DNA from: Candidatus Gastranaerophilales bacterium
GTDB taxonomy: Bacteria > Cyanobacteriota > Vampirovibrionia > Gastranaerophilales > Gastranaerophilaceae
Reading direction: 5' to 3'
Length of the DNA stretch: 55,871 nt
Assembly (NCBI GenBank): GCA_944326585.1
Contig: CALVEN010000008.1
Coordinates: forward strand, 1 to 55,871
In this document: piece by piece, positions 17,499-55,871 of the stretch
Layout: every line of letters starts with the position of its first letter
Position numbering within the stretch: the first letter of the stretch is position 1
The notes under the pieces: generated by a model
Database searches by the model: none
Told to the model about the DNA's origin: nothing
Seen by the model: only the letters and a program-made list of their open reading frames with translations
Program-made: the position numbers and the translations under genes

Positions 17499-17508
17499 TA
17501 TGTAATAT

Positions 17509-17579
17509 TCCCGGATCGTCTAGCGGCAGGACTGAAGATTCTGGCTCTTCCAACGGTGGTTCGAATCCATCTCCGGGAA
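17509..17579 (+). tRNA. tRNA-Gln (anticodon CTG)
   Basis: Acceptor TCCCGGA pairs with TCCGGGA and the discriminator is A. The anticodon stem GAAGA/TCTTC encloses TTCTGGC, which gives CTG. The T-loop is TTCGAAT. CCA is not encoded. Its last 13 bases begin a tandem repeat array. Confidence 0.93.
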
Positions 17580-17919
17580 ATTTTTTATTGGTTGTTTTTT
17601 ATGTTTAAGCGCCCGATTTCCCGGAGAGTCTTCTCACCGGACAAGTTTTCGCGCTGCTCAAACTTGCGGGGTTCTACTTTTCAAGTACCCTCATCTGCAA
17701 GGCTCGTGCTGCTCGCCTGCATCTGAGCTGGCTCCATCTCCGGGAAATTTTTTATTGGTTGTTTTTTATGTTTAAGCGCCCGATTTCCCGGAGAGTCTTC
17801 TCACCGGACAAGTTTTCGCGCTGCTCAAACTTGCGGGGTTCTACTTTTCAAGTACCCTCATCTGCAAGGCTCGTGCTGCTCGCCTGCATCTGAGCTGGCT
17901 CCATCTCCGGGAAATTTTT
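17567..17919 (+). repeat. 167-bp tandem repeat that includes the tRNA-Gln 3' end
   Basis: Two complete 167-bp units start at 17567 and 17734, and a partial third copy (19 bases) starts at 17901. Each begins with the tRNA 3' end (CCATCTCCGGGAAA). Each also carries an inverted copy of the acceptor end (ATTTCCCGGAG), so the unit can fold with a long closing stem. Inside are more hairpins, such as AAGTTT/AAACTT, TACTT/AAGTA and GCAAGGC/GCCTGC. The unit looks more GC-rich than its neighbours. A 41-codon frame (ATG TTT AAG ...) is present in each unit but lacks a ribosome site. This may be a structured RNA or the scar of an element that targets the tRNA end. Confidence 0.85.
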
Positions 17920-17951: not shown

Positions 17952-18839
17952 TTACAGTCCGGCGTTTTTTTTGCGGGTAATTACAATCATGACGCCGAAA
18001 AGCACAAAGCATACTCCTGCTGCAATTCTGAAAGTCATTTCTTCATGGAAGAATATTATTCCGAAAAATATTGCGGTTAAAGGTTCCAGCGCGCCCAATA
18101 TTGCGGTTTTGGTCGAGCCGATTAATTTTATGGCGATATTTATGGTTTCTATGGAAATTACGGTCGGAAATATTGCAAGTCCTGCCGCGCACAGCCACAT
18201 ATAAGGCTCCGTCAAAATCTGCAGTTCGGTGCAGAATTTCAGGTTGCAAATATACACAAAAAGCCCGAAAAGCATTACGTAAAAATTCAATTTGTCAGGC
18301 TTTACGTGCCGGATGGATTTGAGGTTTTTGACGCCTACTATATAAAGCGCATACAATAACGCCGACAAAAGCACCACGCCTACGCCTTTGAGGTTCAGGG
18401 GGATGCCTGATTTGCCGCTGTAGAGAAGAAATATTCCCAGAAATGTCAATAATATTGCATAAATAATCCTAAGGGTTATTTTTTCTTTGTAAAAAATCGC
18501 CATAATTACAGCCACAATTGTCGGATAGATAAAAAGTATTGTGCAGGCAATTCCCGCATCAATGTACTTAAATGCTTCAAAAAGCGTCAGGCTTGAAAAC
18601 GAAAACATTAACCCGAGCGCCAGAAGTGTTATAAATTCCGCAAAATTCACCCTTAAATCGATTTTTTTGACAAGTTTTATCCACAATCCGTAAATCAAAA
18701 CCGCCGCGGCATATCTGTAAAAAAGTATTGAGTTAACCCCGATTCCGTTATGGAGAAGCGGCAGCCCGAATAAAGGGTTAGTCCCGTAGCTTGTTGATGC
18801 AATTATTCCGTTTAAAATTCCGGCAGTGTGCCTTTTCAT
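17952..18839 (-). CDS. EamA/DMT-family membrane transporter
   Basis: The 295-residue protein has ten predicted membrane helices in two EamA halves, starting TAGILNGIIASTSYGTNPLFG and repeating near PLNLKGVGVVLLSALLYALY. The second half ends with IGSTKTAILGALEPLTAIFFG, the typical family motif, and a basic tail (TRKKNAGL). Members export or import small metabolites such as amino acids or nucleotide precursors; the substrate cannot be predicted here. It is followed on the same strand by nothing before tRNA-Gln and is preceded by the carbonic anhydrase gene, 36 bases away, so the two may be cotranscribed. Confidence 0.88.
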   Translation of the reverse strand: MKRHTAGILNGIIASTSYGTNPLFGLPLLHNGIGVNSILFYRYAAAVLIYGLWIKLVKKIDLRVNFAEFITLLALGLMFSFSSLTLFEAFKYIDAGIACTILFIYPTIVAVIMAIFYKEKITLRIIYAILLTFLGIFLLYSGKSGIPLNLKGVGVVLLSALLYALYIVGVKNLKSIRHVKPDKLNFYVMLFGLFVYICNLKFCTELQILTEPYMWLCAAGLAIFPTVISIETINIAIKLIGSTKTAILGALEPLTAIFFGIIFFHEEMTFRIAAGVCFVLFGVMIVITRKKNAGL

Positions 18840-36542: not shown

Positions 36543-36554
36543 TAGCTTTAATGT

Positions 36555-36890
36555 GTCATCCTGAGGCGAAGCCGAAGGATCTAGATAAAAGATACTAAGA
36601 TACTAAGGCAGTAAGATACTAAGAATTTACTGTCGATAATCCAACCTACAATATGTCATCCTGAGGCGAAGCCGAAGGATCTCAGATAAAAGATACTAAG
36701 ATACTAAGGCAGTAAGATACTAAGGATTTACTGTCGGATAATCCGACCTACAAGATGTCATCCTGAGGCGAAGCCGAAGGATCTCAGATAAAAGATACTA
36801 AGATACTAAGGCAGTAAGATACTAAGGATTTACTGTCGGATAATCCGACCTACAAGATGTCATCCTGAGGCGAAGCCGAAGGATCTTAAA
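36555..36890. repeat. Tandem array of about 101-bp composite repeats after trxB
   Basis: Four units start at 36555, 36655, 36757 and 36859, with periods of 100, 102 and 102. A full unit is a GTCATCCTGAGGCGAAGCCG palindrome, then AGATACTAAGATACTAAGGC and AGTAAGATACTAAG, then a TGTCGGATAATCCGACCTAC dyad. The last unit is partial. From 36891 to 37350 I see a GATTCTTCGCTGGCGCAATG piece, the ends of other repeats, an AGTTGCC...GGCAAC dyad (37062-37080) and AT-rich DNA. No gene is visible in 36543-37516. Confidence 0.9.
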
Positions 36891-37353
36891 TAAGCAAGAG
36901 ATTCTTCGCTGGCGCAATGACGTCAATTATTCATGTCATTGCGTACCGTCCTCGCAATAAACGGTAACGCTCACAGCACCAACGAAAACTCAACGTTTCC
37001 GTTGAGTGCTGTTCGCCTCTCGCTTCGCTCGTGCCTCTGCTCGGACGTAAAAAAAAGTTGCCAAAGATTATTCGGCAACATTAAATAAACACGAGGATAT
37101 TAAGAGAGAGAGTATAAAAAAACTTTTTTCTTTTTTCTGTTCTTATAATTTCAAGAACTGAAATTTTGCATCATTTAATATCCAATTATTAACTTTTTTG
37201 ATTTCCCTTACATTTATATAAAAAATTTTTTCATTTAATAATTGCCTTTTTTAAGTTTATTGTAACGATATTTTAACAAAATCCTAAAAGGCACATTATA
37301 CGGGCATTTCGCAAATTCATAATAAAGGGTTGGCAAAGGGTTAGGTAACTGTT

Positions 37354-45223: not shown

Positions 45224-45242
<19 letters not shown>

Positions 45243-45400
45243 TTTCCAATGCCGTGAGAGATGTCGTGCCTTGGCACTTCGAGTCTCGCTATCGGCTGAC
45301 TTAATATCGGGAGAGGTGAGGCGGCTCAGCCGCTTCGAATCCCTTTATCGGCTTTTCCAATGCCGTGAGAGATGTCGTGCCTTTGGCAGCGCGGGATGAC
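45224..45400 (+). repeat. Repeated copies of the tRNA-Thr 3' end
   Basis: The tRNA 3' end with its T-loop (TTCAAGTCCCTTTATCGGCT) is followed by two more similar pieces, TTCGAGTCTCGCTATCGGCT near 45278 and TTCGAATCCCTTTATCGGCT near 45335. The stretch CCCTTTATCGG plus the next 30 bases (TTTTCCAATGCCGTGAGAGA, then TGTCGTGCC) is duplicated exactly at a distance of 111 bp (45230 and 45341). A GCGGCTCAGCCGC hairpin lies between. The pattern parallels the tRNA-Gln array at 17.6 kb. Confidence 0.8.
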
Positions 45401-47614: not shown

Positions 47615-47684
47615 GTGAATTTACAGGTGTATTTCCACCATACCCTCACCCTCAAGAGGGGTGCATGAGTCAAGACAATCCTCT

Positions 47685-47986
47685 GTCATCCTGAGGCGAA
47701 GCCGAAGGAGCTTAGATAAAAGATACTAAGATACTAAGACAGTAAGATACTAAGAATTTACTACAATATGTCATCCTGAGGCGAAGCCGAAAGAGCTCAG
47801 ATAAAAGATACTAAGATACTAAGACAGTAAGATACTAAGAATTTACTACACTCTGTCATCCTGAGGCGAAGCCGAAAGAGCTCAGATAAAAGATACTAAG
47901 ATACTAAGGCAGTAAGATACTAAGAATTTACTGTTGGGCAAGTTTGGTATGCCTATAACCGTCATCCCGCATTTATTGCGGGATCT
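47685..47986. repeat. Tandem array of 85-bp composite repeats after metK
   Basis: Three units start at 47685, 47770 and 47855, exactly 85 bp apart. Each has the GTCATCCTGAGGCGAAGCCG palindrome, AGATACTAAGATACTAAGRC, AGTAAGATACTAAGAATTTA and CT. Compared with the array at 36.5 kb, the units lack the TGTCGGATAATCCGAC dyad. A CGTCATCCCGCATT/GCGGGATCT palindrome (47960-47986) follows. Confidence 0.9.
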
Positions 47987-55758: not shown

Positions 55759-55871
55759 TTTTTTTTAAGGTGATAATTATTTAAAAAAATAAGGTTTTCG
55801 ACAAAAAAAATGAGCCTTGTCCCGGAGCAAGGTCAAGCCTTGCCCTCTCGCAAAACGATAATCAATCGTTT
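55759..55871. other. Window end with partial repeats
   Basis: After an eight-T stretch the end holds GAGCCTTGTCCCGGAGCAAG with a following GTCAAGCCTTG direct repeat, and an AAACGAT/ATCGTTT dyad at the very edge (55854-55871). No coding frame with a start is evident. Confidence 0.4.

Follow-up and report, generated by a model that had tools for sequence, protein, structure and literature searches.

The window analysed here, a stretch of 55,871 nucleotides, carries a tRNA-Gln(CTG) gene at 17508-17580 on the forward strand (ARAGORN; Rfam RF00005, 52.4 bits), followed by a tandem array that occupies the gap ahead of a convergent transporter gene (17952-18839, minus strand). An earlier note on this DNA had described two full 167-bp units and a partial third, framed so that the first begins within the tRNA, and this layout was borne out. 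Tandem Repeats Finder reported 17566-17919 with a period of 167, 2.1 copies, 100% match and a score of 708; unit 1 (17567-17733) is identical to unit 2 (17734-17900), and the partial third copy (17901-17919), which consists of the tRNA 3′ end and a T run, agrees over its 19 nt. The reported recurrence of the tRNA 3′ end in every unit was likewise found, with CCATCTCCGGGAAA at 17567 (within the tRNA gene, the source of the copied end), 17734 and 17901. The two Gln copies are in principle a lower bound, because assemblies break in such arrays, and in another genome (G014) both contigs terminate within the Gln unit. A consensus scan for a promoter or terminator near tRNA-Gln returned none above chance.

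All parts of the Gln unit lie on the forward strand, and its folded part begins 37 nt past tRNA-Gln, at 17617. The inverted acceptor end that had been claimed for each unit, TTTCCCGGAGA, is present at 17617-17627 in unit 1 and at 17784-17794 in unit 2. In unit 1 this inverted copy of the tRNA 3′ end is the 5′ strand of a predicted basal stem of 11 bp, P1, whose 3′ strand is the direct copy of the tRNA-Gln 3′ end, TCCATCTCCGGGAAA, that closes the unit (17733-17747, with the corresponding copy closing unit 2 at 17900-17914); P1 shows compensatory changes in relatives. Enclosed by this stem are an altered inverted T-arm, GTCTTCTCACC (17628-17638), at the place where several other genera have GTCTTCGAACC; a hairpin, P2 (17641-17666), that is paired in all relatives with compensatory changes; a degenerate copy of the T-arm 5′ strand (GGGGTTC, 17667-17674), which reads GTGGTTT in other genera; a small hairpin (TACTT...AAGTA, 17675-17688), represented there by CCC-TTC-GGG; and a long hairpin, P3, CTCATCTGCAAGGC...GCCTGCATCTGAG (17690-17727), with 97.4% of cells paired across 15 sequences. 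The internal hairpins and higher GC content remarked on earlier are both present, with a GC of 0.55 in the core of the Gln unit compared to 0.395 in the window. Thermodynamic folding, a check that the earlier note had proposed, gave -57.7 kcal/mol for the unit with its flank, a modest advantage over dinucleotide shuffles (z = -2.7).

The Gln unit in other genomes

The array is not a peculiarity of a single assembly, a case for which the earlier note had allowed. The sequence used from relatives consisted of tRNA neighbourhoods and model hits, and the 116-bp Gln core was found in 26 of 288 family genomes, distributed over 11 genera. At most of the 15 loci fetched from other genera, the core lies 28-56 nt past tRNA-Gln(CTG) on the same strand, and at most of them the unit is closed by a tRNA-end copy. 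Copy number, whose comparison had also been suggested earlier, is two here, one in G010, G005 and G015, four in G038, and at least two in G101 and G227. The inverted arm is GGAGAGTCTTCGAACCAC in several genera, which plainly reads as an inverted T-arm, and has been worn to GTCTTCTCACC in the window.

An alignment of 15 Gln sequences contained double changes in 17 of 33 pairs, and its covariation was 0.283, compared to 0.148 ± 0.012 for shuffled and at most 0.098 for slid alignments; the signal was not significant with four Gln sequences only and became significant at 15. In G015, the copied end has diverged from the tRNA (TCTTCGGAAAA), and one P1 pair is altered on both sides while most of P1 is still paired. 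Between the window's own genome (G000; 1.70 Mb, 16 contigs) and G005/G015, identity was 92-93% in the core, 78-83% in adjacent genes and 36-38% in the spacer between tRNA and unit, values that place the Gln unit, loops included, above the flanking coding genes in conservation. No Gln unit was present in G003, whose flanks are 87-89% identical, and gain or loss of the unit therefore occurs; the patchy distribution of the core and its absence from this fairly close genome argue against an essential role.

Sister units and the E1 hairpin

Copies of a gene's own 3′ end were also found behind other tRNAs. In G000, 10 of 43 tRNA genes are followed within 600 nt by a copy of at least 14 nt of their own 3′ end, compared to 0 of 1730 mismatched controls in which tails were paired with the flanks of other tRNAs. 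Copies of at least 12 nt were found for 6 of 43 tRNAs in G010 (1 of 1726 mismatched controls) and for 8 of 42 in G115 (2 of 1648), and the upstream side of tRNAs had no own-3′-end copy in any of these three genomes. A chance origin of the copies is excluded.

Behind many other tRNAs, the core of the unit is a different long hairpin, E1, and these sister units follow one plan: the tRNA is followed by a hairpin that is usually terminator-like, an inverted T-arm copy in which the T-loop TCG is usually represented by GAG, a small hairpin, the T-arm 5′ strand (GGTTCGA), E1, the motif AAGACA and, finally, the tRNA 3′ end beginning at the T-loop. An E1 model (R1) built from 13 copies detected 24 copies in G000 and was matched in 16 of 16 genomes of the genus. 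Across a 292-genome phylum sample, E1 was present in 118 genomes of the same family and, outside it, in a single genome from a different family of the order, with one weak hit elsewhere. Pattern matches bearing organism titles were mostly gut or rumen assemblies, many of them labelled Candidatus Gastranaerophilales, which NCBI taxonomy places within Candidatus Melainabacteria. Among E1 placements with enough flank, 78 of 105 had a same-strand tRNA no more than 420 nt upstream and none had one on the opposite strand, a tRNA share that is biased upward because these are mostly top-scoring hits. Across Candidatus Gastranaerophilales, the sister units follow 28 tRNA types. The first E1 begins 57-103 nt past the tRNA, and E1 is followed by a copy of at least 10 nt of the tRNA's own 3′ end in 84% of cases, compared to 0.3% for mismatched tRNAs.

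The E1 hairpin covaries (0.379 versus 0.130 shuffled, 113 distinct sequences). When pairing was scored by duplex energies, the upstream arm paired more strongly with the end of its own tRNA than with other tRNA ends (p = 8e-6, 12 of 15 isotypes; the sequences are not independent of one another), and an earlier exact-match test of the inverted arm had given a weak result. For the P2 arm, the duplex-energy test gave a marginal result (p = 0.01) that was lost when the crop was tighter.

A second array in the window, behind tRNA-Thr(CGT), contains two tRNA 3′-end copies (45229-45388, forward strand). Its second copy has an uninterrupted T-loop, TTCGAATCCC, and is without the long hairpin, which looks as though the T-loop of the copied arm can take up E1 or do without it. 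A third array starts behind tRNA-Phe (55838-55871, forward strand) and is cut by the contig end; positions 55843-55871 match the hairpin of the tRNA-His unit at 93%, and two near-identical units lie behind tRNA-Phe in G010.

About 9 of the 24 E1 copies in G000 are at tRNAs, and the others are dispersed within other inverted repeats. Several of the dispersed loci (L100, L103-L108) belong to a larger repeat family with several near-identical copies, in which E1 lies between CCGCGCC and GGCGCGG arms. Within the window, the E1 model also hits weakly (14 bits, E = 0.05) at 36940-37056 on the minus strand, with no adjoining tRNA. The second unit behind one tRNA-Arg(ACG) gene (L166) has an Arg-ACG-like upstream arm and ends in a tRNA-Arg(TCT)-like 3′ end, which suggests a chimera whose core plus tail moved between tRNA loci. 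A third type of insert, GGATTTGCGGACGGA...GCAAATCCAAGACA, was seen downstream of tRNA-Lys(TTT) in G000 and of tRNA-Arg(TCT) in G010 (L009, L202); in G010 it lies directly 5′ of E1 and AAGACA ends both, in the manner of stacked cassettes.

Relation to the tRNA-linked repeats of E. coli

Small elements known as tRNA-linked repeats (TLRs) have been known from E. coli since 1978, with loci that include rtT at tyrT, serX, lysV, argQ and rrnB. The K-12 genome has 22 TLRs at ten loci, and their hallmark is that 18-19 bp repeat exactly the end of the tRNA or rRNA that precedes them (PMC8144298). Judged by sequence, the Gln units and their sisters, which are folded and non-coding, are TLRs, because this hallmark, a copy of the upstream tRNA 3′ end, is present: 19 nt are common when the T run is included (TCCATCTCCGGGAAATTTT), 15 nt of them strictly in the tRNA gene, and the same identity test gave 18-19 for the E. 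coli elements. TLRs directly follow a tRNA or rRNA gene, in one to five copies per locus, and the Gln unit agrees with them in site and in number (two here, 1-4 in relatives).

The resemblance extends to the internal plan. As with the E. coli TLRs at tyrT-tyrV (rtT/RttR, RF00391) and serX, the units lie directly 3′ of a tRNA gene on the same strand, have a 3′ end that repeats that of the tRNA, starting at the T-loop, and occur in tandem copies, with a unit length of 167 bp here and 178 bp in E. coli. The fetched sequences of the tyrT/tyrV TLR (GGGGAAGGAT-GAG-AAGCTT...AAGGTTCGA-core-AATCCTTCCCC) and the serX TLR (GGGGGGAT-GAG-AAGCCCC...GGGGTTCGA-core-AATCCCCCC) have in common with most E1-type units a GAG in the inverted T-loop (GGAT-GAG-AAGC) and an order that runs from a hairpin through GGTTCGA and a structured core to AATCC.... 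Unlike the E. coli elements, the units described here belong to another phylum, have other core sequences and follow many more tRNA types, compared to ten TLR loci in K-12 (PMC8144298). Rfam searches of the Gln unit at gathering and permissive thresholds returned nothing, and the RtT model RF00391 had no match in the window and none above the gathering cut-off in the family genomes (0 of 117); its one sub-threshold match among these 117 (E = 0.0115) falls exactly on a tRNA-Tyr-type unit of G176 (compare locus L157). By this comparison, the units are not members of the RtT sequence family.

E. coli TLRs are without established function, an early claim for rtT having been retracted, and those linked to 5S rRNA are transcribed by read-through of a terminator and processed, and they bind both Hfq and CsrA (PMC8144298). 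These 5S-linked RNAs, RrA, RrB and RrF, are documented as read-through sRNAs (PMC8144298) and resemble the present units in lying between two terminators and in repeating, at their close, the 3′ end of the RNA upstream, but differ from the Gln units in their linkage to 5S rRNA. REP/BIME palindromic repeats are likewise dispersed hairpins, and rtT resembles BIME-related elements in Enterobacteria (PMC2965389); unlike REP/BIME, the units here have tRNA-specific end copies at fixed distances from tRNA genes. Two other readings were tried and dropped. Simple insertion of E1 into palindromes in a REP- or IS200-like manner, an idea that came from the dispersed copies, leaves the tRNA-tailored arms unexplained, and a hammerhead-like reading of GATGAG...CGA failed as the conserved core was not found.

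The TLR class is already known, and what appears to be new is its presence in this phylum, the variety of tRNA types, the conserved core found across the family and the GAG plan in common with E. coli; a limited literature search found no description of TLRs in this phylum with such a tRNA range, core and GAG plan. A wider generalization, that TLRs are widespread small elements in which one common core is re-tailored, directly and inverted, to many tRNA ends, is offered tentatively and may well not hold. If true, the plan common to Enterobacterales and Gastranaerophilales would have been inherited from a distant ancestor, transferred, or produced more than once by a single templated mechanism. 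A second distant lineage with hundreds of sequences provides covariation, boundary and presence/absence data beyond E. coli alone, and makes it possible to test whether these elements are processed RNAs or templated repeats.

A proposed processed RNA and its alternatives

Three readings had been offered for the array in the earlier note, namely att-like scars, a tRNA-linked structured RNA and a regulatory decoy; the structured RNA is the one favoured here, and the att scar fits poorly. With moderate confidence, we propose that the Gln units and their sisters give rise to a structured RNA processed from a read-through tRNA transcript. Read-through from the tRNA-Gln gene would carry the units into RNA, in which the copied tRNA 3′ end would pair with the upstream inverted copy to form a basal stem that encloses two or three more hairpins. 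The copied end could then act as a 3′ processing signal, much as the 3′ end of E. coli RrB is marked by the copied 5S end (PMC8144298), and a structured RNA of ~130-170 nt would be released that may act in trans or by titration. Units in tandem, which may arise via recombination or slippage between the copied ends, would raise the RNA dose. This model is favoured because the Gln unit is conserved above the coding level with its loops conserved as well, and because G-U is more frequent than A-C when E1 is read on the tRNA-sense strand (76 versus 31), as expected for RNA. It is also consistent with the compensatory changes in the helices, with the constant strand and place at tRNA-Gln across genera, with the own-3′-end copies and the better pairing of the upstream arm with its own tRNA, with the plan in common with the tyrT and serX TLRs, and with the documented transcripts of E. 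coli TLRs (PMC8144298). Read-through may be rare, because many sister units follow an apparent strong terminator.

A lower but still considerable probability is given to the units being non-functional repeats, selfish or merely mutational, an explanation that requires no RNA function. Replication forks stalled by tRNA or hairpin structures would undergo template switching and slippage, which would copy the tRNA end both directly and inverted, the same process would keep stems paired and multiply the unit, and the hairpin core would spread between tRNA loci. Template switching is a documented maker and maintainer of hairpins (PMC8794818), and it would give the same pattern as that seen in the inner E1 helices, where both sides change with few G-U intermediates. 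Also in keeping with such repeats, the inverted and direct copies match the local tRNA, E1 cores mix among tRNAs (the nearest neighbour was at a different tRNA in 26 of 32), a unit at tRNA-Leu(TAG) is cleanly present or absent between G000 and G010, dispersed E1 copies lie within unrelated inverted repeats, and apparent terminators follow many of the tRNAs. Against this explanation stand the conservation of the Gln unit, loops included, above its flanking coding genes, its persistence at the same tRNA across genera, and the recurrence of the plan in E. coli. The structured-RNA model and template switching are compatible, as a templated origin with later function.

It is very unlikely that the units are att scars or minimal remnants of integrative elements that use tRNA 3′ ends, even though such integration leaves the tRNA 3′ end directly repeated, starting at the T-loop, and empty sites exist in G003 (Gln) and G010 (Leu-TAG). 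The insert is folded, conserved in its inner structure, small and near-constant in length without integrase-sized cargo; it includes a tailored inverted tRNA copy, and the spacing from tRNA to first E1 varies little. The two junctions, judged by eye, have no common overlap of the 6-8 bp that tyrosine recombinases need, and neither the identical att overlap nor the cargo or phage/ICE relatives that mark tRNA-targeting integrative elements were found. BLAST against phage records gave no match to the Gln unit, a pattern scan of viral contigs did not find E1, and a viral scan that used the transporter next to the array also returned nothing. Similarly improbable is a regulatory decoy, in which an acceptor/T-arm mimic titrates tRNA-processing or charging enzymes or the inverted arm folds against the tRNA. 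In its favour, the basal stem combines a copy of the acceptor/T-stem 3′ strand with its complement (11 bp in the window). Close tRNA mimicry is nevertheless not kept, because the stem of other units often spans the T-stem part only and the G015 end has drifted with the stem mostly paired.

Arrays of this kind break assemblies, and several contigs of G000 (C9 end, C13, C15 end, C1 start) terminate within them; tRNA-His and tRNA-Arg arrays stand at contig ends, as does the tRNA-Phe array where the window contig stops. The ends of C9 and C15 have an 81-bp stretch in common at 100%, and these two contigs may be neighbours. Tandem repeats of 102 bp and 85 bp, each beginning TGTCATCCTGAGGCGAAGCCGAAGGATCTCA, were also observed in the window at 36554-36893 and 47684-47932, respectively; the two are mutually related and are dispersed elsewhere in the window as well.
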